Shown: positions 111-16,110, counted from the stretch's first letter. The stretch is DNA of 64,000 nucleotides from Terriglobia bacterium (GCA_028716525.1 JAQUPQ010000010.1:1-64000), one strand, 5' to 3'. Notes: generated by a model from the sequence alone, not told the origin. A program made the numbers and translations.

Positions 111-3100
111 ATGACGCGCTACACTAGAACGTCTATGCCCAAGAACTTCATTACGCAACGCTATCAAATCATCCGGCCGGTTGGAGCGGGGGGGGCGGGC
201 GAAGTGTTTCTGGTCGAGGACCGCTGGGAAAGCGGCCGCAAGGTCGCCCTCAAACGGCTCCGTCAAGAGGCTCTGTCGGATCGCACGAGGGAAGGCTTGG
301 TTCGCGAATTCACAGCCTTGAAGCAGCTGCGCCATCCCAATTTGTGCCCGGTGTTTGACTTTGGCTACACCGATCAGGGAGACGCGTACTTCACATCCGA
401 ATTCTGCGAGGGCACCCATTTGATCCAGGGGACCGAGGATCTGGGGTTCAACAACCGTTTGGAGTTGGCCATCGAAATCTGCCGCGCCTTGTCCTATATC
501 CACGCGCGCGGATATGTCCATGGAGATCTCAAACCCGAGAACATTGTCGTTTCCTCCGATGGAAAAGGCGAATCCCCCTCCCTAAAAATTCTGGACTTTG
601 GATTGGCGCGGACCTTTGACGAAGCCTCCCGCCAGAAATTGGGTGGCACACTCGCGTACTTGGCTCCGGAGACTTTGCAGGGCCAGTCCATGAATCTGCG
701 AAGTGACTTGTACGCCCTCGGGGTAGTCTTTTATCAGCTCTTCACGCGCCAGCTGCCGTTCGAAGAAACCGATCCGCAACTGCTGGTCAATATGCAATTG
801 AGTGTTTCTCCGACTCGACCTTCCGAGCGGGACAACACCCTGCCGTCGGCGCTCGATAACGTGGTTTTAAAACTCCTTCGAAAAAATCCGGATGATCGAT
901 TTGAATCTGCGGAAGGGGTTATCCGTTCGATCAATCAACTTTTGGGAACGCAGTTTGAAATCGATACGCGCGCCACGGCCTTTGACTACATCCGAAGCGG
1001 TCGATTCGTGGGCCGGCGGACCGAGCTCGGCCAAGTCGTCCAATCGTTGAACAAGGCGCGCTCCGAGCACGCCGGCTCTCTCGTCCTGGTGCAAGGACTG
1101 AGCGGCGTCGGCAAGACCCGACTCTTGGAGGAAGCTAAAATTCAGGCCCAGTTGGACGGGTTTCGAACTTTTACCGTTGCCGCTTACGAAAAAATAAGAC
1201 AACCGTTCCAATGCTTTTTGGGAGTTCTTCGACCTTTGATTTTAGGGCTCCAACAATCCTCGGCCGACCCCGCCCATCTGCTGGAGCGATATGCGAATGC
1301 CCTCGCTCAAGTCCTTCCCGAGTTGATTGAAGTTACGGGACCGGTCGCGAGCCCCATCTCGGCATCCGCCAGCGAACGCGAGTTGTTGATGGAGTCTCTG
1401 GTCTTGTTCATGAAGGAGGCCTTGGAGGCCCAGCCCACACTGCTTGTGATTCAGGACATTCATTGGGCAGACGGTCTTTCACTGGAATTACTCTTGCGAT
1501 TGGCCCGCGACCTTTACTCCGCGGGAATTGTGTTGGCCGTGAACTTCCGCGAAGACGAAGTGGAAGGAAGCGAACTCGAAACGGTGCTGCCGGCACTTTC
1601 CGGTCTGCCGGGCACGCAAGTCATTTCACTGCAGCCGCTGATTCGATCCGAAGTCGAAGAACTGGTTTCCTCGGCGCTGGGGCACGGCCACACCCCGGTC
1701 CGGCTTTCCGAACGGATCCTCCAGCAAACCGGCGGCAATCCCTTCTTTATTCAAGAACTGCTGTGGTCGTGGATGGAAGAAGGCATCACAGCTCCGCGGG
1801 TCATGGAATGGGAGGAAAGATCAGACCGCCTGGAGTCTTTGCCCATTCCCCAATCCATGCAAGAAGCTTTTCGCCGTCGTTTGGATCACCTGCCCGCCGG
1901 CCAACGAGACGTCCTGGAAACGGTGACCTTATTCGACCGCCCGGTTTCGGCGAAAACACTCTCCGTTGTTCTGGGAAAACCCGTCCCGGGGATTGAAAAC
2001 GACTTGGAAGCCTTGGTCGAAAACGCCATCTTGCGACGTGAAGATTCTTCGGAGGGATCCAGCTATTCTCTCCATCACGCCATCATGAAACCGGCCATTG
2101 AATCGGGGGCCAAACCGGAATTCTCGCAAGCACTGCATCGCGCCATTGGCGAGTACCTGGAAGCCGAGGCCTCCTCATCGCCTTCGGACTTTTCGGAAAT
2201 TCTGGCGTACCACTTTGCGGCCGCCCGAGAAATCAAGAAAGCCCGTCGATATGCGATCCGCGCCGGCGACAAGCTTCGCAAACTCTTTTCCTATCGGGAA
2301 GCCGCCCAGGTTTACCGCATCGCCGAGGGTTATGTGGATCCGGACGACATCCGGGCTTTCGAAATCAAGGAAAAGATCGCCTTCTGCCTGTTCCAGGAGG
2401 GTGAGCTGGAGGCCTCCGAGCAGATGTACCAATCTCTGGTTGAACGGGGCGAGTCCAAACTACCGCCCGGGCGCATTGCCAAATTTCATCTGCGTCTGGG
2501 AATGATTACCGAATATCGCGGCAATTACCCGCAGGCGATTGAGATCAACCGGCGAGGATTGAGCCTGATCGAACACCTGCCCGAGCCCAAGACCAAAGCC
2601 GATCTGCTGGCGCGCATTGGATTCGAATACCAACGCATGTCGGAGTTCCGGATCGCCCGGGAATACGTGACCCAAGCACTCAATCTGGTCGAAGACACTG
2701 AAAATTACTTTGGGCTGGCCGACATTCACAACAGTTTGTTTGTCATCCATTTCTATCTCGGGGAATTTCAAAAGGCCTTGGAGGCGGGACATCACGCCAT
2801 CGCCGTGTTTACCCGATTCGGATGGGCCAAAGGAGTCGCCGGAGTGACGGCCAACTTGGGGGCGGTTTACGATGACTACCTGTACGATTACGCCAAGGCG
2901 TTCGATTACCAGCGGCGCGCCCTCCGTTTGCGCGAGAAGATTTTTGACCGAAGAGGCATCAAACAGTCCTACCTCAACCTGGCAAGCTTGTACTGCCGCA
3001 TGGGGGCCTATTCCACGGCGCTGGATTACCTCGAGCGGGCTCAAAAACTGAACGAACTCATACCTGAAAAACATATCGAAATTCAAATTCAGCACAACCG

Positions 3101-5624
3101 CGGTGAGAACTGCATCCGGCTGGGAGATTTTGTGGGCGCTCAGAAGGCGCTGGACTCGGCACTGCGCATGGCTGAAGAGTCCCAGTTTCAGCAGCTCAAA
3201 ATCTCCACATTGAACCGTTTCGCCGAATGGCACGAGCGGCTGGGGGAGTTGGGCACCGCTCGGGAAATGGCCATTCAAGCCAAAAACTCGGCCCATCACA
3301 CGGACAGCAAACTGGAGGAGTTGGTCGCTTCACTTTCATTGGCGCGCATCGAAATTGCGCAAAAGGATTGGAAGGCCTTGGAACCCTGGTTGCAGAACGC
3401 TTATGAAATCGCGGAACGCCTGCACCACCTGGATCTTCAGGCCATGGCAAAACTCTACGAGGCCAAGGCGGAATACCTCCGGGAAAATGTGGAGCGCTGC
3501 CGCACGCTGTTGTCGGACATCCGCGAAATCGTGCACCACAGCCAGGACCCGTTCCTGCGCATCCAGTATTTCCTCCTGCGGGGCCAGGCGGCCGGGGCCA
3601 AGAGGGACGCCTACATGCAAACCGGCGCTGAAGATCTTCATCAGGCTTTGCGATTGACCGATGCCATTCAAGACGGCGATTTGATTGCAGAAGCCCATTA
3701 TCGATTGGGTCAATGGTACCAGGCCCAGGCGGATTGGCCCGACACCCGCAAACATTTTCTTCTGGGCGCGGCCGTCCTGCGCGGGGTGGCCGAACGATTG
3801 CCCCAGGATCTTCAAAAAAAGTATTTGGAAAAGGCGGAGCGGAACACTATATTGAAAGCTGCGGATTCCCTTCAAGAGGAGCAGCACGAAGCCATCATGA
3901 ACGCTCCGAGTGCCGGCCCGTCATCACTCCACACTCAAAACTACGCCATCACATTGTTCCAGATCTCCAAGCTCGTGAATTCCATGCTGAATTTGAATGA
4001 ATTGCTGGAACGCGTGATGGATCTGGTGCTCGAAGCCATCCGTGTTCAGCGCGGACTCATTCTGCTGGTCAACGAGGACTCCGGAGATTTGGAGGTGAAG
4101 GCCGCGCGGAATATCAGCAAGGAAACCATTGAAGACGCCACAGCCATCAGCAAATCCGTTCTGGAAGATGTGGTCGAGGGTGGAAAACCCTTGATCTCAG
4201 TCAACGCCAAAGACGATCAGCGCCTGCGGGAAAGGCAGTCCATTGTCGACTTCGGGATCGGGATGGTGTTGTGCATCCCCCTGACCGTCAAACAGAAAAT
4301 CATTGGGGCGGTGTACATCGATAACCCCATCGCGACGCTCCCCTTCACCGAAGATGATGTGAATTTCCTGATGTCGTTCACCAATCTCTTCAGCATCGCC
4401 ATCGAAAATGCCCGGCTTTATGACAAGCTCCATCAGGAGAATATTTATCTGCGCCAGGAAGTCCGCGGAAAATACAAGTATGAAAATATTATCGGCCGCA
4501 GCCCCCAGATGATGGAGCTGTTTCGAAGGCTCGATAATGTCGTCAACAGCTCCGCCAACGTTTTGATCTTCGGGGAAAGCGGCACCGGGAAGGAACTCAT
4601 CGCCCGGGCCATCCACTACAACGGCAGCCGCAAGGAAAAGCGTTTTATCGCCATCGACTGCGGGGCTATTCCGGAAAATTTGATTGAAAGCGAACTGTTC
4701 GGCTACCGCCGGGGAGCTTTCACCGGGGCCCTGACGGACCGCAAGGGACTCTTTGAAGAAGCGGATGGCGGAACGGTGTTTCTCGATGAGGTCACCAATA
4801 CCAGCCGCACACTTCAAGCCAAGCTGCTGCGGGCCATCCAGGAGCGCGAGATCCGCCGCGTGGGAGACTCCGTGGACAGAAAAGTGGACGTGCGCATCAT
4901 TGCCGCGACCAACCGCGATCTCAGAGCCATGGTTCGGGCGGGTGAGTTCCGCGAGGACCTGTACTTCAGATTGAATGTACTGAATCTGACCATCCCACCG
5001 CTTCGGGAGCGGCAAGAAGATATTCCCGTGCTCGTCAACCATGTGCTCAAGCAGCTTCTGGCGCAAAATCCCGGCACGGTGCGGTCTATTTCACGCGAGC
5101 CCCTGCGCTTGTTGAAGGCCTACTCCTTTCCGGGAAATGTTCGAGAGCTGGAGAACTTGGTGGAGAGCGCTTTTTACATGTCGGCTCACGAAGAAATTCA
5201 AATCAAAGACTTTCCGCCGGACTTGGCACGCAAAGCTGCCTCCCCCACTTCGGAGTCAAGAGACCCAGAACCTTCCGCCCCGCCAACCGCAGCCGAGAAA
5301 ACTTCGAGCGGAACGCCCGAGCACGAACTTCCTCCTCATGAATTATTGAAACGCGCCAAGGAGTTGTACCGCATCATGAAACACGAAGGCGTTCCTTTTT
5401 GGAAGGCCGTCAAAGAACCCTTCATGAAGAGAGAATTGCCTAAGGGCGTAGTTCGAGAAGTCATCAAGCTGGGCCTCGTGGATAGCCACGGAAGGTATCG
5501 AGATTTGCTGCGGGATTTCCACTTGGATTCTTCAGAATATACGGTGTTTATGAATTTTCTGCGCAAATACGATTGCCAGGTCGACTACAAGCCCTACCGC
5601 CAAAAAGCATTGACCGTTTCCTAG
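111..5624 (+). CDS. Ser/Thr kinase - AAA ATPase - TPR - GAF - sigma-54 activator fusion protein
   Basis: An 1837-residue signalling protein that probably couples stimulus sensing to sigma-54-dependent transcription. Residues about 18-290 form a Hanks-type kinase with a G-A-G-G-A-G loop, K48, HGDLKPEN (137-144), DFG (162-164) and APE (185-187). The HRD Arg is replaced by Gly. A P-loop ATPase (SGVGKT near 330) follows, then a long helical TPR-like stretch (about 740-1250) and a GAF domain (about 1285-1440). The sigma-54 AAA+ domain (about 1460-1697) has Walker A GESGTGKE and the sigma-54-contacting GAFTGA loop. The C-terminal 90 residues do not look like the usual Fis helix-turn-helix. No clear ribosome site decides between the ATG at 111 and the one at 135. 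This architecture is known in Acidobacteriota and myxobacteria. The target genes are unknown, but a sigma-54-like promoter lies at 9208. Confidence 0.93.
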   Translation: MTRYTRTSMPKNFITQRYQIIRPVGAGGAGEVFLVEDRWESGRKVALKRLRQEALSDRTREGLVREFTALKQLRHPNLCPVFDFGYTDQGDAYFTSEFCEGTHLIQGTEDLGFNNRLELAIEICRALSYIHARGYVHGDLKPENIVVSSDGKGESPSLKILDFGLARTFDEASRQKLGGTLAYLAPETLQGQSMNLRSDLYALGVVFYQLFTRQLPFEETDPQLLVNMQLSVSPTRPSERDNTLPSALDNVVLKLLRKNPDDRFESAEGVIRSINQLLGTQFEIDTRATAFDYIRSGRFVGRRTELGQVVQSLNKARSEHAGSLVLVQGLSGVGKTRLLEEAKIQAQLDGFRTFTVAAYEKIRQPFQCFLGVLRPLILGLQQSSADPAHLLERYANALAQVLPELIEVTGPVASPISASASERELLMESLVLFMKEALEAQPTLLVIQDIHWADGLSLELLLRLARDLYSAGIVLAVNFREDEVEGSELETVLPALSGLPGTQVISLQPLIRSEVEELVSSALGHGHTPVRLSERILQQTGGNPFFIQELLWSWMEEGITAPRVMEWEERSDRLESLPIPQSMQEAFRRRLDHLPAGQRDVLETVTLFDRPVSAKTLSVVLGKPVPGIENDLEALVENAILRREDSSEGSSYSLHHAIMKPAIESGAKPEFSQALHRAIGEYLEAEASSSPSDFSEILAYHFAAAREIKKARRYAIRAGDKLRKLFSYREAAQVYRIAEGYVDPDDIRAFEIKEKIAFCLFQEGELEASEQMYQSLVERGESKLPPGRIAKFHLRLGMITEYRGNYPQAIEINRRGLSLIEHLPEPKTKADLLARIGFEYQRMSEFRIAREYVTQALNLVEDTENYFGLADIHNSLFVIHFYLGEFQKALEAGHHAIAVFTRFGWAKGVAGVTANLGAVYDDYLYDYAKAFDYQRRALRLREKIFDRRGIKQSYLNLASLYCRMGAYSTALDYLERAQKLNELIPEKHIEIQIQHNRGENCIRLGDFVGAQKALDSALRMAEESQFQQLKISTLNRFAEWHERLGELGTAREMAIQAKNSAHHTDSKLEELVASLSLARIEIAQKDWKALEPWLQNAYEIAERLHHLDLQAMAKLYEAKAEYLRENVERCRTLLSDIREIVHHSQDPFLRIQYFLLRGQAAGAKRDAYMQTGAEDLHQALRLTDAIQDGDLIAEAHYRLGQWYQAQADWPDTRKHFLLGAAVLRGVAERLPQDLQKKYLEKAERNTILKAADSLQEEQHEAIMNAPSAGPSSLHTQNYAITLFQISKLVNSMLNLNELLERVMDLVLEAIRVQRGLILLVNEDSGDLEVKAARNISKETIEDATAISKSVLEDVVEGGKPLISVNAKDDQRLRERQSIVDFGIGMVLCIPLTVKQKIIGAVYIDNPIATLPFTEDDVNFLMSFTNLFSIAIENARLYDKLHQENIYLRQEVRGKYKYENIIGRSPQMMELFRRLDNVVNSSANVLIFGESGTGKELIARAIHYNGSRKEKRFIAIDCGAIPENLIESELFGYRRGAFTGALTDRKGLFEEADGGTVFLDEVTNTSRTLQAKLLRAIQEREIRRVGDSVDRKVDVRIIAATNRDLRAMVRAGEFREDLYFRLNVLNLTIPPLRERQEDIPVLVNHVLKQLLAQNPGTVRSISREPLRLLKAYSFPGNVRELENLVESAFYMSAHEEIQIKDFPPDLARKAASPTSESRDPEPSAPPTAAEKTSSGTPEHELPPHELLKRAKELYRIMKHEGVPFWKAVKEPFMKRELPKGVVREVIKLGLVDSHGRYRDLLRDFHLDSSEYTVFMNFLRKYDCQVDYKPYRQKALTVS

Positions 5625-5658
5625 AAACGCTCCCACAAAACACACGCGCTTAATAAAT

Positions 5659-5694
5659 AATTAAATAATCATCAATAAAGATGATTATTTAATT
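5659..5694. terminator. AT-rich 15-bp perfect hairpin after the kinase/sigma-54 regulator gene
   Basis: AATTAAATAATCATC (5659-5673) is exactly complementary to GATGATTATTTAATT (5680-5694) around a 6-base loop. Pairing can continue past one wobble pair on both sides. It lies 35 bases after the stop codon of the giant regulator and is followed by T-rich sequence. It may act as a terminator, possibly in both directions. The low GC of the stem leaves open a protein-binding role instead. Confidence 0.55.
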
Positions 5695-5917
5695 GTTATT
5701 TATGTATTTTACAGCCTCACTAATTTCCTTAATAGTAAAACATTATACTTATAATCAATCACTTATAGATATCTTAAGATAATATTTAACTTTGGACATT
5801 TGATTGTATGACTAAATGGCGTTCGATCAGTTGGAGAAGAAGGCACAATGGATTTTGCAAGTCAAATTGAATTTCGGGTGACGAGTTCCTCGCGCGACGA
5901 CGAGGGGAATGTGGCAA

Positions 5918-5958
5918 CAGGGACACAGCCAACTCGCCCGAGCACCACTGTGTCCCTG
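5918..5958. repeat. REP-like inverted repeat with GGGACAC arms
   Basis: CAGGGACACAG (5918-5928) and CTGTGTCCCTG (5948-5958) form a perfect 11-bp inverted repeat with a 19-base spacer. Similar GGGACA-N-ACAC arms occur at 28165-28224 and 46835-46897. This suggests a dispersed palindrome family of the kind mobilised by IS200-like RAYT transposases. That link is inference, because no such transposase is in the window. Confidence 0.55.
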
Positions 5959-6062
5959 ACCACAACATCTCTTGTAGTTTTCCCCAAAAGAACGAACAGA
6001 GGTGCTTGACGGTTCAACATCACAACCTGAAAACTTTCAAAGAAATAGAGGAGGAAACGAAC

Positions 6063-6140
6063 ATGGAAGAGATTCTGGTTCTCGAAGTCGAAGAGTTGGA
6101 AGACAAAACGGCTCCGAACGTTATTTGGACAGGAAACTGA
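6063..6140 (+). CDS. 25-residue candidate precursor or signal peptide
   Basis: A tiny gene with an excellent ribosome binding site (GAGGAGG, 8 bases before the ATG) and a hairpin terminator 20 bases after its stop. The product starts MEEILVLEVEELED, an acidic Leu/Glu-rich stretch like a RiPP leader, and ends KTAPNVIWTGN. The ELEDKTAPN segment resembles the short LE-x-LE-D-R/K-x-AP motif at the N-termini of some planctomycete surface proteins, so it could be a recognition tag. The C-terminal NVIWTGN matches the repeat unit of the subtilase tail encoded at 9537-11429. A peptide-exporter-like fusion protein lies 380 bases downstream. The family was not recognised. Function as a modified peptide, signal or protease tag is inference. 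Confidence 0.6.
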   Translation: MEEILVLEVEELEDKTAPNVIWTGN

Positions 6141-6160
6141 AAGAAGTTCCTGGGGTGCAG

Positions 6161-6200
6161 ATGGAGCGGTTTCGAGAGGGATCGCTCCATTTTCACTTTT
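6161..6200 (+). terminator. Hairpin terminator or attenuator directly after the tiny peptide gene
   Basis: ATGGAGCG (6161-6168) pairs perfectly with CGCTCCAT (6183-6190) and is followed by TTTCACTTTT (6191-6200). Its position between the tiny gene and the downstream membrane genes would give more peptide transcript than exporter transcript. That arrangement is common for small precursor peptides. Confidence 0.6.
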
Positions 6201-6256
6201 AGCGTCGCTCGGCCGCGCAGTTTCGTGATCATCCCAGCTTGAGCAGGACGTAAACG

Positions 6257-6469
6257 ATGAACACCTTGAAGAAAAACAAAATTTCCGGACTGGCGATCAT
6301 AGGACTTATTTGTTGGTTGGCGGACCTCATCATTTTATGCAGTTCAGGTCCGGGATTTATAACGCTGCTCTTGTTTGTGGCTACGCTCAGCTTCCTCGGC
6401 ATCATTTTCTCTCGGGATTTCACGTTTGATCTGAAGTCCAACGAGTCCCGCCGGCATCTTCGTATTTGA
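6257..6469 (+). CDS. Small two-helix membrane protein of unknown function
   Basis: This 70-residue product has a basic N-terminus (MNTLKKNK), two hydrophobic segments (about residues 9-28 and 34-52) and a polar, Arg-rich tail (ESRRHLRI). An AGGA sequence lies about 9 bases before the ATG. It sits between the tiny peptide gene and the exporter-like fusion, 50 bases from the latter, so it may belong to the same unit. Small helix-hairpin proteins near peptide exporters can be immunity or accessory factors, but nothing in the sequence proves this. The family was not recognised. Confidence 0.5.
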   Translation: MNTLKKNKISGLAIIGLICWLADLIILCSSGPGFITLLLFVATLSFLGIIFSRDFTFDLKSNESRRHLRI

Positions 6470-6519
6470 GCTTTACGTGACCACGGGGTGCGGCGAGCTT
6501 CAATAAGGACCGCTCGCGT

Positions 6520-8955
6520 TTGGCCGGTTTCATCATGCACACCGAATTCCATCCTCAGCTTCGCCCCGACCTGCTGACCTCAGAGCAGCAGGAAAACGGT
6601 CAAAGTATATTCATTCTCAAAAATCCCGACACGCAACGATTCTTCCGGCTGAAGCGCCCCGAATATCTCATTGCACGGTTGTTGGACGGGACGCATTCGT
6701 TGAGCGCACTTCCGGATGTGCTTCAAGAGGTTCACCACCTCGGTGTAGCGCCGGAAGTCTTGCACCGCTTTGTTGAGAAACTGGCTCAAAACGGCTTACT
6801 TGTCGAGGTTTCAGAACACATCCCATCGCCCGACGCTGTCCCGCCCGATCAGTTGTCATCGCTTTCCGCCGAAAACCCCTTCGGGAAGGACGCGGCCCTC
6901 CAACACCCGATGGGTCACATGCCCGCCCCAAGGTCCGGACTGGGCCGCTTTCTGTATTGGAAGATTGCTCATTTTGATCCCGATGCTTTCCTGAACAAAT
7001 TGCTGACGTTGTCTCGTTTTTGTTTCACCCGGTCATTTCTCGTTATTTCCAGCATCCTCATATTCTTTTCGGTATGTATCACGATCGCCAATTGGGATGT
7101 GATCGGAGCAGAAACGCTGAAATTGTTTTCGACTCGATCCATTCTGTGGGCTTTCCTCGTGATGATGCCTATCGTTGTTTTTCACGAGCTGGCGCACGGG
7201 CTGACCTGCAAGTACTTTGGCGGAGAAGTGCGCCAAATGGGAATCCTGCTCCTCTATTTTCAGCCGGCGTGTTTCTGCAATGTCAGCGACAGTTATCTGT
7301 TCCCGAAAAGATCTCATCGTATCTGGGTGATGGGGGCGGGAATCTACGCTCAGGCCTTCTTGTGGGCGATCTTCACGCTGCTATGGCGAGTCATCACACC
7401 GGAGAGCCCGGTCAGCCGCCTACTCTTTATTTCCATTGCCGTGAGCGGAATCATCACCATCTTTCAGTTCAATCCCCTGCTGAAGCTGGACGGCTACTAT
7501 ATTTTAAGCGAGCTTTTTGGAATTCCGAATCTGCGCTCCCGGTCGTTTCGCTATCTGGGATCAGGTTTGAAGAAACTGGCCCTGGGCGCGTCCCCGTCAT
7601 ATCCAGCGGCCAGCCTCCGAGAGAAGCGTCTATATTGGGTTTACGGACTTGTAGCCATCTTCTATTCATTCAGTTTTCTCGGATACTACCTCCTGAAATT
7701 CGAACGATATCTGATCGACGAATATCAAGGAGCAGGGTTCATTTTCTTCTGGGGTGCCGTACTTTGGGTTGCGATCCAGCCTCTGGCCGCATCGCTTCGA
7801 AAGGCATTCCCCAAGAAGGCGAAAGCGAAGGGTATTCCCATGGCACGGCATAAGAATATCTATGTATCCAGTGTTCTTTGTCTTTGTGGCGCAGCCTTAT
7901 TGACGTTCGGCCGTTGGGAGCTGAAAGTCTCCAGCGAATGCAGCTTGCTTCCCTACGAACGCGCCGACGTCCGCGCTGAAGTTTCCGGAGTCATCGACCG
8001 CATCTACTTTGATGAGGGGCAGTACGTCCACTCGGGAGATATCATTGCGCGCCTGGCCGATTACAAATACGGCACCGAAAAGGCAAAAACCGAGGCCGCC
8101 ATCAGCGAGGCCCAGGCTCAACTGCAGTTAATGCTGGCGGGCGCTTCCAAGGAAGACATTGCCCTGGCCCAGGCGCAAGTGAAGCGGGCCGAGGTATCTG
8201 TTCTCAAAGCCGAATCGCAAATCCCCATTGCCAAAGAGCAAGTGGACTTCGCTAAACGAAATTACGAACGCTCCAAGAAAATGTTTGATGAAAAGCTGCT
8301 GGCCTCGGTGAGCTTCGATGAAGCCAACCGCGACCTGAATATTCGCAGCCGGGAACTCGATGAAGTGACTCGCGATGTGGAAGAGAAAAAGCAACAGTAT
8401 CAAGAGTCCCAGCGCAGCCTGGCTCGAGTGTCGGCCGGGCCCCGGCCGGAGGAAGTGGCTGCTAAACGGGCTGAAATTGACGGGCTCACTTCCCAAAAAC
8501 AGCTGCTTGAAACGGAAAGTGCCTACACGGCCATTCGGAGCCCCATCGACGGGGTGATCACCACGCATTTTCTCAAGCAGAAAGAGAAAGCGTTCCTGCA
8601 GCAGGGTGACATCATTTGCAGCGTCGCCAATACCGCCAAGATCATCACTGAAATTCCCGTTCCAGAAAAGGAAGTCGGCGATGTGAAGATCGGCTTTCCG
8701 GTGCGATTGAAAGCCAATGCCTATCCCCGCAAGGATTTTGAAGGCCGGGTCACTCAAATTTCAAACATCGCGGATCAACCCGACAACAATTTCAAGGTTT
8801 TGTATGTTCGCAGCGAAATCAACAACCCCGATTTGCTGCTAAAACCGGAAATGACCGGTTACGCCAAAATTTACTGCGGAAAACGAACCCTTGGGGATTT
8901 GGTGACGCGCCGCATGGTGCGCTTTGTACGCACCGAATTCTGGTCCTGGTTTTGA
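6520..8955 (+). CDS. PqqD-like / M50 metallopeptidase / HlyD-type single-chain exporter protein
   Basis: An 811-residue membrane protein. The first 110 residues look like a PqqD-type peptide-recognition winged helix. A multi-helix M50 site-2-protease-like region follows, with HELAH at 222-226 and the metal-binding LDGYY motif (Asp near 324). From about residue 475 it is a periplasmic adaptor of the HlyD type, with a biotinyl-lipoyl-like half (SGVIDRIYFDEGQYVHSGD), a long Ala/Glu-rich coiled coil and the returning half (SPIDGVITTHFLK). Proteins of this kind are known next to ribosomally made peptides and bacteriocin-type systems, where they probably bind, cleave or move a peptide. No ABC ATPase partner is encoded nearby. 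The TTG at 6520 has AAGGA 11 bases upstream. An ATG at 6535 is the alternative start. Confidence 0.88.
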   Translation: MAGFIMHTEFHPQLRPDLLTSEQQENGQSIFILKNPDTQRFFRLKRPEYLIARLLDGTHSLSALPDVLQEVHHLGVAPEVLHRFVEKLAQNGLLVEVSEHIPSPDAVPPDQLSSLSAENPFGKDAALQHPMGHMPAPRSGLGRFLYWKIAHFDPDAFLNKLLTLSRFCFTRSFLVISSILIFFSVCITIANWDVIGAETLKLFSTRSILWAFLVMMPIVVFHELAHGLTCKYFGGEVRQMGILLLYFQPACFCNVSDSYLFPKRSHRIWVMGAGIYAQAFLWAIFTLLWRVITPESPVSRLLFISIAVSGIITIFQFNPLLKLDGYYILSELFGIPNLRSRSFRYLGSGLKKLALGASPSYPAASLREKRLYWVYGLVAIFYSFSFLGYYLLKFERYLIDEYQGAGFIFFWGAVLWVAIQPLAASLRKAFPKKAKAKGIPMARHKNIYVSSVLCLCGAALLTFGRWELKVSSECSLLPYERADVRAEVSGVIDRIYFDEGQYVHSGDIIARLADYKYGTEKAKTEAAISEAQAQLQLMLAGASKEDIALAQAQVKRAEVSVLKAESQIPIAKEQVDFAKRNYERSKKMFDEKLLASVSFDEANRDLNIRSRELDEVTRDVEEKKQQYQESQRSLARVSAGPRPEEVAAKRAEIDGLTSQKQLLETESAYTAIRSPIDGVITTHFLKQKEKAFLQQGDIICSVANTAKIITEIPVPEKEVGDVKIGFPVRLKANAYPRKDFEGRVTQISNIADQPDNNFKVLYVRSEINNPDLLLKPEMTGYAKIYCGKRTLGDLVTRRMVRFVRTEFWSWF

Positions 8956-9207
8956 TTCCGGCTGGGACTGATTGCTGAAATAAGCGGAAGCGCGGATCCG
9001 GATGTTCCTCTGTTGGATCCGACCCAATCCCGCCTTCCCTCCTCTTCCGTAGATCCTCTCCTGAATGATTTGCAGTCAATTTTCCTCGGCAGTTCCATGC
9101 TTAGATTTCGGTCAAACTGACTTGATTTAACCGGTCAATTGGACCGAATTCTGCCATCCCCTTGGACTCTTCATCTCCTAACCCACACAAAACAAAGCCC
9201 GATTTCT

Positions 9208-9224
9208 TTGGAGAATTCATTGCT
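9208..9224 (+). promoter_or_regulatory. Candidate sigma-54 promoter (-24/-12)
   Basis: TTGG-N8-TTGC-T gives GG (9210-9211) and GC (9222-9223) exactly 10 bases apart. This matches the consensus -24 YTGG and -12 TTGCW elements, although the CACG part is poorly matched. Transcription would start near 9235 and cover the small ORF at 9308 and the subtilase. A sigma-54 activator is encoded at the start of the window, which adds weight. One site read by eye can arise by chance. Confidence 0.4.
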
Positions 9225-9235
9225 CAACAAGGGCG

Positions 9236-9271
9236 GGCCTGAAGCGAGACGTACCTCGTCGGGCCGGTTTT
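9236..9271 (+). terminator. GC-rich hairpin followed by GGTTTT
   Basis: GGCCTGA (9236-9242) plus CGAG (9245-9248) pair with CTCG (9255-9258) plus TCGGGCC (9259-9265), with a two-base bulge and one G-T pair, around loop ACGTAC. A GGTTTT tail follows. It can be the terminator of the exporter gene. If the promoter at 9208 is real, it would instead be a structure at the very 5' end of the subtilase transcript. Confidence 0.45.
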
Positions 9272-9307
9272 CCAAGAAAATCAAATAGAGACGCGCAGGG
9301 AGAAAAA

Positions 9308-9529
9308 ATGAGCCCGACATTCAAAAAGAGACAAAAACAAAAGAGTGAATTTGCTCACACCTCTGAAAAAACTCCGGCTCACCCCATGGAAGCCTCTGAT
9401 GTGACGTCCGCATTCCGCGGCGCACGACATCTCTGGAATCGCCAGACCATTTGGGAATTTCAGCCTGCTTTTGTGCCCTCTGATGCCATCTTGGTTCTCC
9501 CCATAGATGCAAACCACAAAGGATGGTAA
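9308..9529 (+). CDS. Small basic protein of unknown function abutting the subtilase gene
   Basis: A 73-residue product preceded by AGGGAG with a 5-6 base gap to the ATG. Its TAA ends 8 bases before the likely subtilase start, so the two could be translationally coupled. The N-terminus is highly basic (MSPTFKKRQKQK). The middle contains NRQTIWEFQPAF and the end is DANHKGW. There is no signal peptide or membrane helix. It may be a chaperone, a propeptide-like factor or a second small peptide of the locus. The family was not recognised, and it could be spurious despite the good ribosome site. Confidence 0.45.
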   Translation: MSPTFKKRQKQKSEFAHTSEKTPAHPMEASDVTSAFRGARHLWNRQTIWEFQPAFVPSDAILVLPIDANHKGW

Positions 9530-9536
9530 TGCGGTG

Positions 9537-11429
9537 ATGCGACGAATCCGATTGATTCTTTTGATCCTGGCGACGGCCCTGATGCTTCCGAGCGCAGCCG
9601 CGGCCCAAAGAATTGACAAACTCGATCGAGGTTTGAGAGCCCGCGTGAATCGCGGAGATCACGGAATGGTGCGTGTCATTCTTCGCACCAAACTTTCGCC
9701 GGATGACATCAATCCCAGCGAGATGATCGGGCGATGGGCCCGGCCCAAGAAGAATCTATATGCTATCGGTGGGGTGAGCGCCGATGTGGATGTTCGGGAC
9801 CTGGAGGGGCTCGCCCAAGACGGTGAGATTGAGGGAATCTCCGAAGATTACGTGGTGCGACCCTATAACGACACCACCGTGAAATCAGTGGGTGCGGATA
9901 TCGCACAACAAATTTACAGTGTCGATGGTCGGGGGATCGGCATCGCAATTTTGGACACGGGAGTGTCTCCGGATACCAAGGGCAGGGATTTGGACAACGA
10001 TCACGGAAAAGGAAGTCGTGTTATTGCTGAAACCAACACTTCGGAGAGCCATGGCGCCCCGAACGATTTTTACGGCCACGGAACCCATGTCGCAGGCATT
10101 GCCGCGGGGAACGGAGATCAATCCAAGGGCATTCTGGCGGGTATCGCTCCGGGGGCCAATATCATCAACGTAAAAGTCCTGGGTAATGACGGCTCGGGCT
10201 ACGTCAGCGATGTCATCGAAGGAATCCAGTGGGTCATCCAAAACAAGGATAACTACAATATCCGCATCATCAATCTTTCACTCGGCCATCCGATCGCTGA
10301 ATCCTACAAAACCGACCCGCTCACTCAAGCCTGCGAAGCGGCGGTCCATGCCGGCCTCTTCGTTGTTGTGGCTGCAGGAAACTATGGTCAGGATCAGTCC
10401 GGCAACATTGTCTATGGCGGAATCACCAGCCCGGGGAACGATCCCCTGGTCATCACGGTGGGGGCCATAAAGACGGAGGGAACTTCCAATCGTTCTGATG
10501 ATTTGATCGCCAACTACAGTTCACGTGGCCCTACGGCCATCGATCTGATTTCTAAACCCGATCTCGTGGCCCCGGGCAATCGGATCAAATCCATCGCCGA
10601 CCACAGTTCAAACAAGAAAGATCTCTTCGACCTGTACCCTCAAAACCGGGTGGACCCGACCTATTACGGAGAAAAACCCAAGAACCCCGACGATGATCAG
10701 TACTTCATCCTCAGCGGCACCTCGATGGCCACTCCGGTGGTCTCGGGAACATTGGCTTTGATGCTTCAGGCGAACCCGAATCTGACCCCCAATCTGGCGA
10801 AGGCCATCCTGATGGTGACGGCTCAAGATCTCCATCAACCGTTCATTGTACAAGGCGCAGGGTATTTGAATACTTATGGTGCTGTAATGCTGGCGCAGGA
10901 CATCCTGCAGCCGGGCGGTCTCGCTTCTTCATCCCAACTCCTGGACAAAGGATCCAGTTTGTCCACGCAAAACCAAATCCAGGGCGACAACATCATCTGG
11001 GGCGGAAACATCATCTGGGGCGGAAACATTATTTGGGGCGGAACCATCGAAAACAATCTTCCTCTTTGGAGTTCGCAAGTGGATTGGGGCAGTGGAACCC
11101 TCGCGTGGAACAACGGGACCCTGCTCTGGAACGGCGGAAATGTCTGGAATAAGGGTAATGCGACTTGGAGCAACAACGTGATCTGGGGTGGAAACATCAT
11201 TTGGGGAGGGAACTATACCGGTACAAGCGTCGTCTCGCTCCTCAATGTGGTGCAATATTCCAGCCCGATATGGACGGCCAATACCATTTGGGCCGCGAGT
11301 AACGTCGTGTGGAACAACGGCAATGCTGTTTGGAACACTGGAAACACGGTCTTCAGCAGCGGCAATACCATTTGGACCGATGGAAACGCTGTCTGGAGTT
11401 CGTCGATCCTCATCAACGGAGAAAATTAA
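9537..11429 (+). CDS. Secreted subtilisin-like serine protease (S8) with C-terminal W-G-G-N repeats
   Basis: A secreted serine endopeptidase of about 630 residues. It has a signal peptide (MRRIRLILLILATALMLPSAAAA) and an I9-like propeptide region. The catalytic triad is Asp (ILDTG, about 140), His (GHGTHVAG, about 184) and Ser (GTSMATP, about 396). After residue 460 the protein becomes a tail of short N-x-I/V-W-x-x-G-N repeats rich in Asn, Trp and Gly, including three tandem NIIWGGN units. The tail probably forms a repeat structure for surface attachment or secretion. I chose the ATG at 9537 because it gives a clean signal peptide. A GTG at 9534 and an ATG at 9507 are in the same frame. The repeat motif is shared with the tiny peptide at 6063. 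Confidence 0.92.
   Translation: MRRIRLILLILATALMLPSAAAAQRIDKLDRGLRARVNRGDHGMVRVILRTKLSPDDINPSEMIGRWARPKKNLYAIGGVSADVDVRDLEGLAQDGEIEGISEDYVVRPYNDTTVKSVGADIAQQIYSVDGRGIGIAILDTGVSPDTKGRDLDNDHGKGSRVIAETNTSESHGAPNDFYGHGTHVAGIAAGNGDQSKGILAGIAPGANIINVKVLGNDGSGYVSDVIEGIQWVIQNKDNYNIRIINLSLGHPIAESYKTDPLTQACEAAVHAGLFVVVAAGNYGQDQSGNIVYGGITSPGNDPLVITVGAIKTEGTSNRSDDLIANYSSRGPTAIDLISKPDLVAPGNRIKSIADHSSNKKDLFDLYPQNRVDPTYYGEKPKNPDDDQYFILSGTSMATPVVSGTLALMLQANPNLTPNLAKAILMVTAQDLHQPFIVQGAGYLNTYGAVMLAQDILQPGGLASSSQLLDKGSSLSTQNQIQGDNIIWGGNIIWGGNIIWGGTIENNLPLWSSQVDWGSGTLAWNNGTLLWNGGNVWNKGNATWSNNVIWGGNIIWGGNYTGTSVVSLLNVVQYSSPIWTANTIWAASNVVWNNGNAVWNTGNTVFSSGNTIWTDGNAVWSSSILINGEN
10989..11042 (+). repeat. Three tandem 18-nt units coding NIIWGG
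   Basis: Three consecutive 18-base units (10989-11006, 11007-11024, 11025-11042) encode N-I-I-W-G-G each. The first two are identical and the third has silent changes only. Further degenerate units continue to about 11400. Recent tandem duplication within the tail is likely. Confidence 0.85.
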
Positions 11430-11510
11430 TAGAGGACGGCAGCCAGTTATTTCGGTCGGTCTCAAGCCATCAGGGGCCTGAAAGCTTTCTGTAACTTGAG
11501 GAGGAGCTCA

Positions 11511-13991
11511 GTGGTGCAGAAGTATCTGAAAAAAATTCACCTTCTGGACATCTACATCTTCGCGATTTCTGCCCTGGGGGCGTATTTCCTCATTCACGCG
11601 GCCGTGACCGTGGACTATACGGCCCACTGGAAAGATCTGCTGACCCTCGTGGTGCTCAGTGGGGCAACGGCCTTCCTTCAAGTTGCTCTTCCTTTCTCAA
11701 AGGCATCCATTTCTGTTTCCTATGCCATTGTCTTCACCAGCATTCTCCTTTTGCCGCCGAGCGGGACCGTGCTGGTCGCTTTCGTGTCGGCTCTTTCAGG
11801 ATACCTCCGAAGTCCGACCAAACAATTTCGATTCAGTGTATTGACCTTCAATATCGGCAATCTTATTTTGAGCGCTGTCGCCGCCTGCAATCTGCTCAGC
11901 CTCTTTACCAATGTGAAATGGTTCTGGAGGGGTTGGCAGGCCCTGCCCCTATTGACGGCCACTTCGGTCTACTTCCTCGTAAGCACCTTCTCGATCGGGC
12001 TGGCCATTTCCCTTAAAGAATCCAAGAACGTCAAAGAAACCTGGAAACAAACATTCTTTTGGACGGCGCCCAGCTTTTACGTCGGAGCTTCCATTGCGTG
12101 GGCATTGACGGTCTTTTACCAACAGTTTGGAATCGCGGTTGTCCTGCTTGCGATTCCTCCGCTGTATCTCACCTATTACACGCACAAGATGTACATGGGT
12201 CGCTTGCGGGAGAACAATGACCACCTCAAGCACCTTGCGGACTTGCATTTGCGCACCATTGAAGCCTTGGCCCTGGCCATTGACGCCAAGGATGAAACCA
12301 CGCATCTGCATTTGCAGCGTGTGCGGATTTTTGCCAGCGGAATTGCCAAAGCCTTGAGTCTTCCCGAACCTGAAGTCCAAGCCATCCGGGCCGGCGCTTT
12401 ACTCCACGATGTCGGCAAGTTGGCGGTCCCCGAATATATTCTCAATAAGCCGGGCAAATTGACCCCGCAAGAATTCAATCGCATGAAGATTCATCCCATT
12501 GTGGGTGCCGAGATCCTGTCGGCGGTCAACTTTCCATATCCGGTGGTGCCGGTGGTCTTGTGCCACCACGAGAAATATGACGGTACCGGTTATCCCAACG
12601 GGTTGAAGGGCGAAGAGATTCCCATCACGGCCAGAATTCTCTCGGTGGTGGATTGCTTTGACGCACTGGCTTCCGACCGGCCCTATCGCAAAGCCTTGAA
12701 GCCGGAAGATGCCATGCAATACATCGGGGATCAAAAAAGCAAGGCCTTTGATCCGGCGATCGTCGAACTGTTTCAAGAACTTTATCCCCAGCTGGAAGCA
12801 GAAGCTTGGGCCGCGGCTCAGGAGGCCCAACGCATTTCCTCCAACCAGCCCACGCTCTCGTTCCACTTTAATCCTGTGGCGGAAGCCCAGGCAAAACCCG
12901 CGGCCGGTTTCAGCGAGCCGGTAAAAATCAATCATCTGAAGAACATCGCGGCCGCCAATCAAGAGGTTTATTCATTGTACGAGCTTGTTCAAAGTGTGGG
13001 AACCAGCCTCAGCCTGGTTGAAACCTTGAGCCTTATCGCCGCCAAGATTCGAAAGGTCATCCCCTGCGATTCATGCGTGACCTACCTGCGGCAAGAGAAC
13101 CGGTTGGTGCCCCAATACATCGACGGAAAAGAGAAAGAGACCTTTTCGGGTCTTTCCATCCCCTTGGGCGAGGGAATTTCCGGGTGGGTCGCCGAAAACA
13201 AGCGGCCTCTGATCAACGCCAACCCGGCGGTGGAATTTGGATATTTGGGCAACGCCGCGCGTTTTACCTTGATGCGTTCCGGCCTCTCCATTCCCCTCCT
13301 GGTGAAGGAAGAAGTTCTCGGTGTCATTACGCTCTATGACGAGTTGCCCAATAAGTTCGTCGGCGACAATCTTCGGGTTCTGGAACTCATTTCCGCCAAG
13401 GCCGCCTTGGCGATTAAGAATGCCATGACCTTCGAGCGCACCTACGAGAATTCTTTGACCGACGCGCTCACGGGCTTGCCCAACTCCCGGCATATGTTCC
13501 TGAAGCTCGACGAAGAAATCGCCCGGGCCCGGCGGAATGGAACCACGCTCGCCATCCTGGCGATGGATCTGGATTTCTTCAAAGAGATCAACGACTCGTT
13601 CGGCCACACCGTCGGCGACAAAGTGCTCCGTCAAATTGCCAAACAATTGCGCAGCACGCTTCGAGACTATGACTTTGTCGCCCGCCTGGGCGGCGACGAG
13701 TTTATGGCGGTGCTTCCCGGTCTTTCCGACGAGGATGTCCAGAAGAAGATGCAGCAGATTCAGTCCGAGGTCGAAAACCTGCAGTCGGAGAAACGCTTCG
13801 GACGATCCATTCGAACCTCCGTCAGCATCGGTGCGGCCACGTTCCCGCGCGACGGCAAAGATGCCGACACGCTTCTATCGGTGGCGGACGTCCGAATGTA
13901 CGACAACAAGTTTGAACAAAAGAAACGGCGGCAGGAAATTGATTTCTCCCTGGCCTCCATGGACAAGGAGAATCACTTCCCGATTCAGTAA
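11511..13991 (+). CDS. Membrane-bound HD-GYP phosphodiesterase with GAF and GGDEF domains
   Basis: An 826-residue c-di-GMP enzyme. The N-terminal 230 residues hold about six to eight hydrophobic segments (a MASE-like sensor). The HD-GYP domain follows with HD at 299-300, and its HHEKYDGTGYP motif is intact. A GAF domain lies at about 490-640. The C-terminal GGDEF domain has an intact GGDEF signature at 727-731 (RLGGDEFMA). Both synthesis and breakdown of c-di-GMP are therefore possible in one chain. AGGAGG at 11499-11504 points to the GTG at 11511 (or 11514) as start, rather than the TTG at 11496. A strong terminator follows the gene. Confidence 0.92.
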   Translation: MVQKYLKKIHLLDIYIFAISALGAYFLIHAAVTVDYTAHWKDLLTLVVLSGATAFLQVALPFSKASISVSYAIVFTSILLLPPSGTVLVAFVSALSGYLRSPTKQFRFSVLTFNIGNLILSAVAACNLLSLFTNVKWFWRGWQALPLLTATSVYFLVSTFSIGLAISLKESKNVKETWKQTFFWTAPSFYVGASIAWALTVFYQQFGIAVVLLAIPPLYLTYYTHKMYMGRLRENNDHLKHLADLHLRTIEALALAIDAKDETTHLHLQRVRIFASGIAKALSLPEPEVQAIRAGALLHDVGKLAVPEYILNKPGKLTPQEFNRMKIHPIVGAEILSAVNFPYPVVPVVLCHHEKYDGTGYPNGLKGEEIPITARILSVVDCFDALASDRPYRKALKPEDAMQYIGDQKSKAFDPAIVELFQELYPQLEAEAWAAAQEAQRISSNQPTLSFHFNPVAEAQAKPAAGFSEPVKINHLKNIAAANQEVYSLYELVQSVGTSLSLVETLSLIAAKIRKVIPCDSCVTYLRQENRLVPQYIDGKEKETFSGLSIPLGEGISGWVAENKRPLINANPAVEFGYLGNAARFTLMRSGLSIPLLVKEEVLGVITLYDELPNKFVGDNLRVLELISAKAALAIKNAMTFERTYENSLTDALTGLPNSRHMFLKLDEEIARARRNGTTLAILAMDLDFFKEINDSFGHTVGDKVLRQIAKQLRSTLRDYDFVARLGGDEFMAVLPGLSDEDVQKKMQQIQSEVENLQSEKRFGRSIRTSVSIGAATFPRDGKDADTLLSVADVRMYDNKFEQKKRRQEIDFSLASMDKENHFPIQ

Positions 13992-14109: not shown

Positions 14110-15081
14110 ATGCTGCGCCGTCTGATCCAGCGGCTCCTCATATCCATCCCCTTGATACTCGGCATCACGTTCTTTTCGTTTCTGCTGATGCATACGGCCC
14201 AGGGCGATTTCCTGTCGTCCATGCAGCTCAATCCCCAGATCGACCAGCGAACCATCCAAACCGCGCGCTCGCAGTTCGGGCTGGATCGCCCCTGGTACGT
14301 TCAGTATGAAAAATGGATGGTACAAATCCTGCACGGCAATTTGGGGTATTCGTTCGCTTTCCAGGAGCCGGTCGGCAGCATGATCGGATCCTTCGCCGAA
14401 AACACGATTCTGCTTTCAGTCACGTCCTTGGGAATCGCCCTTCTGATTGCATTTCCGGTGGGAATTTTCAGCGCCCTAAAGAGAAATTCCTGGATCGATC
14501 GCATCATTCAATTCATTTCAACCGCCGGAATGTCGGTTCCCACGATTCTGGTGGCGCTCTTGGCGCTCCTCGTGGCGTCCCGAACGCAGTGGTTCCCCAT
14601 TGGGGGGCGTCAGCAGGTCCTTATTTCAGAAATGAGTTGGGGTGAAAATCTTCTGGACCTGTTACACCACTTGGCCCTGCCCGCACTGGTCCTCTCCATC
14701 AATCCGACCATCCTTTATATACGCCAGGTGCGCAGCAATGTGGCTTCCGTATTAAGCGATCCCTTCATGACCAGCGCCCAGGCCAAAGGCCTCCACCCCG
14801 CCCGTATTCTCTGGGCGCACGCGCTTCGAAACGCTCTCAACCCCATCATCTCCCTGTTCGGTTTCTCGTTCGCCAATCTTCTGAACGGCGCCTTTTTGGT
14901 CGAGATTATCATGTCCTGGCCGGGCTTGGGGCGATTGACGTTTGACGCCCTTCTGGCCCGGGATTTGTATCTCGTCATGGGATCCCTGACCCTGGCATCG
15001 GTGATGTTGATGGGAGGAAATTTACTGGCCGATCTTCTCATGGCCTGGAACGATCCGAGAATACGCCGGGCCTCAGTTTAG
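14110..15081 (+). CDS. ABC transporter permease, oligopeptide/dipeptide type (DppB/OppB-like)
   Basis: A 323-residue inner-membrane permease of a peptide or nickel-type importer. Several hydrophobic helices are clear, starting with MLRRLIQRLLISIPLILGITFFSFLL, the typical N-terminus of the DppB family. The loop with NPTILYIRQVRSNV...DPFMTSAQAKGL is the EAA-like motif that contacts the ATPase. The second permease follows after 57 bases. No binding protein or ATPase gene is present in the window, so these subunits must come from elsewhere. The amino-sugar salvage genes downstream suggest that peptides or muropeptides are the cargo; this is inference. Confidence 0.88.
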   Translation: MLRRLIQRLLISIPLILGITFFSFLLMHTAQGDFLSSMQLNPQIDQRTIQTARSQFGLDRPWYVQYEKWMVQILHGNLGYSFAFQEPVGSMIGSFAENTILLSVTSLGIALLIAFPVGIFSALKRNSWIDRIIQFISTAGMSVPTILVALLALLVASRTQWFPIGGRQQVLISEMSWGENLLDLLHHLALPALVLSINPTILYIRQVRSNVASVLSDPFMTSAQAKGLHPARILWAHALRNALNPIISLFGFSFANLLNGAFLVEIIMSWPGLGRLTFDALLARDLYLVMGSLTLASVMLMGGNLLADLLMAWNDPRIRRASV

Positions 15082-15138
15082 AAAGGCCCCCAACCGCAGA
15101 ACGACTCAGATTCCATCGCGGTCTTTCTGCAGATTTCT

Positions 15139-16110
15139 ATGGATGGAAACGGCAAAACCAGCGTATTGAGGCAACCGCGGTTCCGATGCGGCATCGGACT
15201 GCTGGCCTTTATCACCCTATTGGCGCTGGGTGCGGACTTCATCGCTCCGTATTCCCCTTCCACCCAATTTAGAGAATCGTATATCTCGGCGCCTTGGCAT
15301 GACAACAATCCCTCCATTCAGGGATCGCCTCGCCTCACATTCTTTGCTGTGGGCGAACCGTATCGTTGGCTCGGACTGGTGCCCTGCCGCCGGCATTTAT
15401 TGGGATCTTCCAACTCGGCGCATCTGTTTCTTCTGGGCGCCGATGAATTCGGGCGCGACCTTTTCTCGCGGCTGCTTTTCGGGGCGCGCATTTCCCTTCT
15501 CGTGGGCCTGGTGGGCGTGGTCATATCGTTCGGAGTCGGAGTCTTGCTGGGGGGCCTTTCCGGATATTTCTCCGGATGGGTCGACCAGATCATAATGCGA
15601 AGCTCCGAACTCTTCCTGGCGCTTCCCGGATTGTATTTGCTTCTCACCCTGCGCTCGGTTTTTCCTCGAGAACTCTCTTCGACTGCCAGTTTCTTCCTGA
15701 TTATCGCCATTTTGTCGCTAGTAAATTGGGGATCCATTGCCCGCGTCATTCGCGGCATGGTGCTTTCCCTCCGCCAGAGTGACTTTGTGGAAGCCGCTCG
15801 CGCTTCGGGATGCACCCACCTCCGGGTTTTGGTGCGACACATCCTTCCTAACACCGCTCCCTTTCTGACCGCGCAGGCCCTGCTCAGCATTCCCTACTAC
15901 ATTCTCGGAGAGATCGCCCTGTCATTCCTGGGGCTGGGAATCCAAGAACCCACACCCAGTTGGGGAAACATGCTGGCGTCGGCAATGAACGTCAATTCAC
16001 TCACACAGCACCCCTGGATCCTTTCTCCCGGCGCCGCTATTTTTCTTGTGGTTTTGGCCTTCAACCTGGTGGGCGAGGAACTCAACGATGCCTTTTCGCC
16101 TCGAAAATAA
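15139..16110 (+). CDS. ABC transporter permease, oligopeptide/dipeptide type (DppC/OppC-like)
   Basis: A 323-residue permease, partner of the preceding DppB-like protein. It has one N-terminal helix, a periplasmic region, and then the conserved block GADEFGRDLFSRLLFGARISL typical of DppC/OppC. The cytoplasmic EAA-type loop is DFVEAARASGCTHLRVLVRHILPN. The C-terminus has the family motif PTPSWGNML. Gene order DppB-DppC is conserved in this transporter family. It is followed within 170 bases by the SIS-domain gene of the salvage cluster. Confidence 0.9.
   Translation: MDGNGKTSVLRQPRFRCGIGLLAFITLLALGADFIAPYSPSTQFRESYISAPWHDNNPSIQGSPRLTFFAVGEPYRWLGLVPCRRHLLGSSNSAHLFLLGADEFGRDLFSRLLFGARISLLVGLVGVVISFGVGVLLGGLSGYFSGWVDQIIMRSSELFLALPGLYLLLTLRSVFPRELSSTASFFLIIAILSLVNWGSIARVIRGMVLSLRQSDFVEAARASGCTHLRVLVRHILPNTAPFLTAQALLSIPYYILGEIALSFLGLGIQEPTPSWGNMLASAMNVNSLTQHPWILSPGAAIFLVVLAFNLVGEELNDAFSPRK

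Follow-up and report, generated by a model that had tools for sequence, protein, structure and literature searches.

A 25-codon precursor gene and an RRE-M50-HlyD fusion protein: probable leader-guided peptide cleavage and export in about a dozen bacterial phyla

A 64,000-nucleotide stretch of DNA from a Terriglobia bacterium (GCA_028716525.1, JAQUPQ010000010.1:1-64000; hereafter "the window") carries an open reading frame (ORF) of only 25 codons upstream of a gene for a single-chain protein with PqqD-like, M50 protease, and HlyD segments, which raises the question of whether so small an ORF encodes a peptide and, if it does, what the fusion protein does with it. An initial annotation, made from the sequence alone, had proposed a peptide maturation and export locus at 6063-11429, and all the parts it named are present: the ORF, its ribosome site, a two-helix membrane protein, the fusion, a 73-codon ORF, and a subtilase. 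We find that the 25-codon ORF is a precursor gene whose leader motif accompanies related fusions in distant bacteria. The novelty lies in predicted leader processing by RRE and M50 domains that lacks known modification chemistry, is joined to an export adaptor in one chain, and occurs across about a dozen phyla. No description of the motif strings, of PqqD with M50/HlyD, or of Planctomycete LEDR sorting motifs was found in the open-licence literature, and prior description elsewhere is possible.

Association of a leader motif with the fusion protein

Fusion loci were gathered by scanning genome contigs with an alignment of nine fusions, which gave 80 loci from Acidobacteriota, Verrucomicrobiota, Pseudomonadota, Planctomycetota, Gemmatimonadota, Rokubacteria, and Nitrospirae, and further from Zixibacteria, Ignavibacteria, Latescibacteria, Aminicenantes, Bacteroidetes, and Eisenbacteria (names per record titles; about a dozen phyla in all). 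Under a strict rule (ATG with a ribosome-site-like sequence and an LExRIAP-type motif within 60 codons), genes with ELExRIAP number 72 in the 208 kb near the fusion (within 1.5 kb), at 54 of the 80 loci, and 1 in 699 kb elsewhere. The motif scan was loosened after the data had been seen, and the reversed-motif control, loosened equally, gave 0 matches near the fusion and 2 far from it. Most of the near genes (64/72) lie on the fusion strand. One cultivable carrier of both precursor and fusion is Pseudogulbenkiania subflava DSM 22618 (L163).

Across 62 distinct leader segments, the search itself fixed the L, E, and P of LExRIAP; at the fourth position, 56 have R and 6 have K, and I and A are kept in 58 and 59, respectively. 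Conservation extends beyond the searched motif, with E at -2 in 52 segments and L at -5 in 46. The family is constant up to "AP," after which come 2 to more than 60 variable residues, and this fixed leader with divergent tails is the leader/core signature of a precursor family. Two to five tandem precursors are common at fusion loci, and some genomes encode several. Clusters of precursor-like ORFs, such as MKENYGVIWTEIIDIEELEAKIAPSGSAAVTED and MNTELKNEIVSIEIEELEQKIAPGGADTSFLD, and tandem sets such as MSDRIQLRIEELEQRIAPGSTGNPGNNNPPLNNTNNPGNEGTGGQVSTGGH also appeared when 399 genomes of the window's class were scanned for the pattern, and a translated search gave weaker matches in another acidobacterial family (f3).

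In f3 genomes, extra precursors with the core DGGETVLPL lie away from the fusion (L079:7943-8212, L096:6327-6840, L099:4416-4733, and others); in two examined f3 loci, they have an aconitase gene on one side and a 6-pyruvoyl-tetrahydropterin-synthase gene on the other. In Gemmatimonadota, the fusion family is present as two or three consecutive genes (L178:8576-13559, L188:8051-13532, and L190), with precursors ending AP-RRPGLA, RPALGI, or GKVTPGN. Distant fusions of about 30% identity (L011:3989, L013:3541, L014:528, and L015:639) adjoin 81-94-residue peptides that lack LExRIAP and are made of repeats (LGKLGKLGK, LSKQAHLSKQ, LAESKLAES, TALQRTALQR), some of them starting MAIQKKSLIS; these are possibly a second client type.

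The precursor gene in the window

The window genome (G000; 4.2 Mb, 96% complete) was compared with two genomes of another genus in its family, G001 and G002. The precursor gene and its signals are as follows (all + strand).

6048-6054, +: ribosome-binding site GAGGAGG of the precursor gene, read from the sequence and identical in G001 and G002
6063-6140, +: precursor peptide gene, 25 codons, MEEILVLEVEELEDKTAPNVIWTGN, assigned from its conserved family and codon selection
6063-6116, +: residues 1-18, the predicted leader, which carries the recognition motif EELEDKTAP (family logo and match to the daptide leader)
6117-6137, +: predicted released core NVIWTGN, 7 residues, placed by analogy with daptide cleavage after P(-1); this tail is variable in the family
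6159-6192, +: stem-loop or terminator-like element 3' of the precursor gene, with a counterpart in G001 and a weak one in G002

The precursor at 6063-6140 thus reads as the leader MEEILVLEVEELEDKTAP followed by NVIWTGN. Its orthologues, MEENLVLEVEELEEIVAPNILWGV in G001 and MEENLVLEVEELEEKIAPNVIWVS in G002, occupy the same position behind the same ribosome site, GAGGAGGAAA. The two predicted cores of these sister genomes are NVIWVS and NILWGV, and cores in this group end in N, S, or V. Over 22 codons, the comparison of the window with G002 shows 10 synonymous and 3 non-synonymous changes, and that with G001 shows 7 and 6 (dN 0.17, dS 2.66, the non-synonymous and synonymous rates). The precursor ORF is under purifying selection. 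Both expectations set for the peptide in the initial annotation have thus held: its codons are selected, with mostly synonymous changes relative to G002, and the ORF is conserved beside the fusion, the test named beforehand, in G001 and G002 as well as at the distant loci that satisfy the strict rule.

The ORF had also been credited with its own terminator. A 15-bp stem with a T-rich tail does follow it in the window (z -4.2) and in G001 (z -3.4), but the structure is weak in G002 (z -1.5). The precursors match no Pfam or NCBIfam family even at an E-value of 10, and an Rfam search around the gene returned no element. Upstream of the gene, a strong inverted repeat, CAGGGACACAG...CTGTGTCCCTG, lies at 5918-5960 (z -4); a conserved upstream RNA structure was ruled out, as this repeat has no equivalent fold in G001 or G002.

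The fusion protein and the proposed mechanism

6535-8955, +: RRE-M50-HlyD fusion, 806 residues (Pfam/NCBIfam, invariant active-site residues, AlphaFold model)
6535-6813, +: RRE domain of the fusion, residues 1-93 (profile and fold matches)

When a profile of 40 sequences of the N-terminal 95 residues was compared with all PDB chains, the best three matches were TbiB1 (5v1u, E 0.0018), PqqD (3g2b), and TfuB1 (6jx3). The E-values are individually modest, about 1e-3. The predicted fold of this domain (predicted local distance difference test score 83) best matches 6jx3, 5sxy, and 5v1v, which are leader-binding proteins of lasso-peptide and pyrroloquinoline quinone (PQQ) pathways, several with a bound leader, and all of the top ten fold matches are RRE-containing proteins of ribosomally synthesized and post-translationally modified peptide (RiPP) pathways. 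On the agreement of profile and predicted fold, we assign the domain as an RRE (RiPP recognition element), which bears out its earlier description as PqqD-like. In the M50 segment, H217, E218, and H221 (HExxH) and D319 (LDG) are invariant in 39 fusions, and residues 459-806 resemble the adaptors EmrA (4tko), HlyD, and MacA in sequence and fold. The best NCBIfam match is the daptide protease NF041824 (E 2e-56).

The reading that we favour, and consider likely, is RRE-guided intramembrane cleavage after AP with adaptor-assisted export, the product in the window being a 7-residue peptide. In the cytoplasm, the RRE of the fusion would bind the leader motif EELEDKTAP and present the leader to the fusion's own M50 intramembrane protease, which would cut after AP (P18); the HlyD-type adaptor would then lead the core through the periplasm, with a TolC-like channel in the outer membrane as the presumed exit. 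In Planctomycete loci, a TolC-type gene adjoins the fusion. The tag would be generic, with related fusions handling many different cores. The recognition step is strongly supported by predicted fold and co-occurrence, from which we infer leader binding itself, and the cut site, export, and outer channel are proposed by analogy.

Several points weigh against this scheme. It is built on conservation and predictions, with binding, cleavage, and export all inferred from them. Synteny between the window and G001 and G002 extends more widely, making gene order there weak evidence alone. A strict motif match is absent at 26 of the 80 loci: a looser match or a different ribosome site is present at about 8 of them, some are contig ends, and the rest are unexplained. 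Genes with an unrecognised ribosome site are present at the strict-negative loci L131, L137 (four copies), L151, and L155, and a near variant at L172. The NF041824 match, at 191.6 bits, is below the 300-bit cut-off, and the fusion contains no energised transporter.

Organization of the locus

The remaining genes of the unit are listed below; every gene from the regulator to the HD-GYP/GAF/GGDEF gene is on the + strand.

111-5624, +: regulator, 1837 residues, Ser/Thr kinase - AAA_16 - TPR - GAF - sigma-54 activator (Pfam)
6257-6469, +: 70-residue two-helix membrane protein, with orthologues only in G001 and G002 and no matching Pfam family
9308-9529, +: 73-codon ORF, a conserved small protein (...FRGAR..WN...EFQP) whose orthologues in G001 and G002 have strong ribosome sites
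9507-11429, +: secreted S8 subtilase with C-terminal NxIWGG repeats (PF00082, 3e-54)
11496-13991, +: membrane HD-GYP - GAF - GGDEF protein, 831 residues (Pfam), whose f3 orthologues adjoin fusion and precursor

Although the parts first noted do lie within 6063-11429, the conserved unit is wider and spans 111-13991, as the regulator and the HD-GYP/GGDEF gene belong to it. Three parts are accessories of the window lineage and do not define the system: the two-helix protein, the 73-codon ORF, and the subtilase. The 73-codon ORF is a real gene, with a dN/dS of about 0.19 between G001 and G002, and a subtilase recurs in 4 of the 80 fusion loci. The operon has no ATP-binding cassette (ABC) exporter with its own ATPase; the earlier statement that no ABC gene is present is true of the core, but an Opp/Dpp-type permease pair (14110-16110) and amino-sugar genes lie 3' of the unit. 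These genes are probably unrelated to the peptide unit.

Regulators and a possible signalling role

Orthologues of the regulator and of the HD-GYP/GGDEF protein accompany fusion and precursor in both the window family and f3, and regulator orthologues with the same domains adjoin the fusion in G001, G002, and f3 genomes. The fusions of the two families share only about 33% identity and do not group as sisters when the tree is rooted at its midpoint. Retention of the same two regulators beside fusion and precursor in both families speaks for a secreted signal that feeds into sigma-54 and cyclic di-GMP (c-di-GMP) control, and the window genome has an RpoN gene. We therefore suggest, tentatively, that the released 6-7-residue peptide could be a secreted signal whose production or sensing is tied to the sigma-54 activator and the HD-GYP/GGDEF protein. 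Cores elsewhere are very different (GLLGYEGQPGNQGG repeats, GSKSH repeats, and His-rich tails), and uses other than signalling are therefore likely.

Alternative explanations

The client range could be far broader. LExRIAP might be a general N-terminal sorting signal and the tag of a previously undescribed cross-phylum protein export route, with tag reading (RRE), cutting (M50), and handover of the client to the outer membrane (HlyD adaptor) combined in one polypeptide; clients would then extend from 6-residue signals, the tiny peptide being the smallest, to repeat-rich surface proteins, including Gemmata-like LEDRxxP proteins. The logic is that of other sorting-signal/peptidase pairs. Planctomycete loci do encode longer clients with LEDRIVPS or LEERIAPS, 90-180 residues long with GSSKK repeats, and one client of 1490 residues (KKLEDRIAPA). 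In the Gemmataceae genome G401, from which locus L162 comes, LEDR[ILMV]xP has 34 matches against 1 for the reversed control, and 9 of 11 inspected sites are near the N terminus of long ORFs. However, other fusion-bearing Planctomycete genomes have no genome-wide excess of LEDR[ILMV]xP, the window genome has no further clients (pattern matches fall below the reversed control), and an M50 fusion would not readily suggest itself as the route of a 1490-residue protein. We regard so general a device as somewhat doubtful.

A second explanation is that the system is a true RiPP pathway, in which an unrecognised enzyme modifies the core, for example at its Trp, before leader removal and export. RREs usually serve modification enzymes, and recurrent proteins of no assigned family adjoin the fusion at some loci: a 338-385-residue family at 15 and a metallo-beta-lactamase-fold protein at 4. 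Both families are absent from window-type loci, however, no known RiPP modification family is found among the genes scanned from 111 to 22872, and the only unassigned window genes, those for the two-helix protein and the 73-codon product, are too small for typical enzymes. Hidden modification of the window core is accordingly unlikely. The 338-385-residue protein (motif NNGSHRAYALRxMGITHVPCIIQH) lies directly 3' of the fusion in its 15 loci (L142:7919-8959 and 14 others), mostly with GSKSH-type or GIGVG/His-type precursors. It has no Pfam or PDB match, and its GSHRAxALR stretch is suggestive of ParB-like domains. The metallo-beta-lactamase-fold protein is about 515 residues long (L118:4116-5663, L139, L155, and L184).

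The subtilase of the window offers a third explanation. Its C terminus (10974-11415) is built from repeats resembling NxIWGGN, and at 10989-11048 an 18-base unit is repeated exactly in tandem. The core might mimic such a repeat (NVIWTGN versus NVIWGGN) and cap, anchor, or inhibit the enzyme, or the subtilase might trim the peptide. The best match to the core in the six frames of the window is indeed a subtilase repeat (6/7 identical), other repeats of this protein take the next three places, and subtilases are also near the fusion in L123, L124, and L184. Against this, a shuffle test is marginal in the window (14/2000) and not significant in G001 and G002, and a subtilase is missing both from most fusion loci and from the window-type f3 loci in which regulator and precursor occur. 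A partnership of this kind seems improbable.

That the small ORF is a chance ORF or a mere regulatory leader (attenuator) of the downstream operon, as the hairpin on its 3' side might suggest, is very hard to credit given the cross-phylum motif conservation, the codon selection, the tandem copies, and the positions downstream of the fusion in f3 genomes; codon selection and the motif's association with the fusion led us to reject a chance ORF.

Implications

Leader-guided cleavage and export, the favoured reading, gives an unnamed membrane fusion of about a dozen phyla a testable function and a defined set of clients, and a single motif now finds more than 70 precursor genes, mostly too short for annotation. 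It connects the leader of daptides with a far broader use that is apparently free of modification, points to a possible short-peptide signal in Acidobacteriota coupled to sigma-54 and c-di-GMP control, and provides a candidate explanation for the LEDRxxP N-terminal motif across a Gemmataceae genome.

Comparison with known systems

Gram-positive short-peptide pheromones arise when the M50 protease Eep cuts a tiny precursor, and their receptors are of TPR type. The window resembles these systems in the predicted M50 cleavage of a tiny precursor to a product in the hydrophobic, Trp-containing hepta/octapeptide class, in its TPR-bearing regulator, and in the Opp-type permeases close by. It differs in having no lipoprotein signal and no Rgg/RRNPP regulator, and in its RRE leader recognition and Gram-negative envelope. 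With type I secretion and tripartite systems (EmrA, HlyD, MacA) it shares an HlyD/membrane fusion protein adaptor, but here the adaptor is fused to a protease, and the chain has no ABC, major facilitator superfamily, or resistance-nodulation-division pump.

The epipeptide protease EpeP is an M50 protease thought to cleave and export its peptide (PMC10885120), a precedent for joining the two steps. The likeness to EpeP and to the YydH/LiaK family (NF058609) lies in a membrane-bound M50 enzyme with a short peptide as its presumed substrate and cargo, with a weak profile match (48.5 bits, under the 225-bit cut-off); the precursor here is another, and HlyD and RRE are in one chain. No radical SAM epimerase was found in the scanned neighbourhood (111 to 22872), and with the match below cut-off, membership in the epipeptides was rejected.

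Daptides are the closest relatives. Their precursors have the N-terminal motif ELExMEAP, whose L, M, and E/P positions matter when recognition by the MpaB RRE is assayed; an M50 protease that depends on an RRE takes off the leader, whose last residue is counted as P(-1) (PMC10036551). Alike are the RRE fused to an M50 site-2 protease (MpaP/DapP, NF041824), the occurrence of several precursors per locus, and a leader that ends in AP, similar but not identical (EELExKxAP here, EELEDKTAP in the window, with K/R-I/T for M-E). On the other hand, the window lacks the DUF-RRE protein DapB, the alcohol dehydrogenase, the aminotransferase, and the methyltransferase, and the Pfam scan of genes from 111 to 22872 detected none of DapB/C/D/M. 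Daptide cores end in Thr, unlike those of the window and its relatives; the HlyD adaptor is fused to the protease here, with no dedicated multi-component ABC exporter; and the distribution is about a dozen Gram-negative phyla rather than Actinomycetota and Bacillota. Daptide membership was rejected on the missing chemistry genes, the missing C-terminal Thr, and a protease under the NF041824 cut-off.

The locus does have the broad features of an RRE-guided RiPP-type system, with a conserved leader and a variable core encoded beside an RRE protein. The initial reading as a peptide maturation and export locus is supported, with recognition and cleavage as a variant of the known daptide mechanism and not something wholly new. 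By this analogy, the window locus resembles the half of a daptide system that recognises and cleaves the leader, and is itself no daptide.

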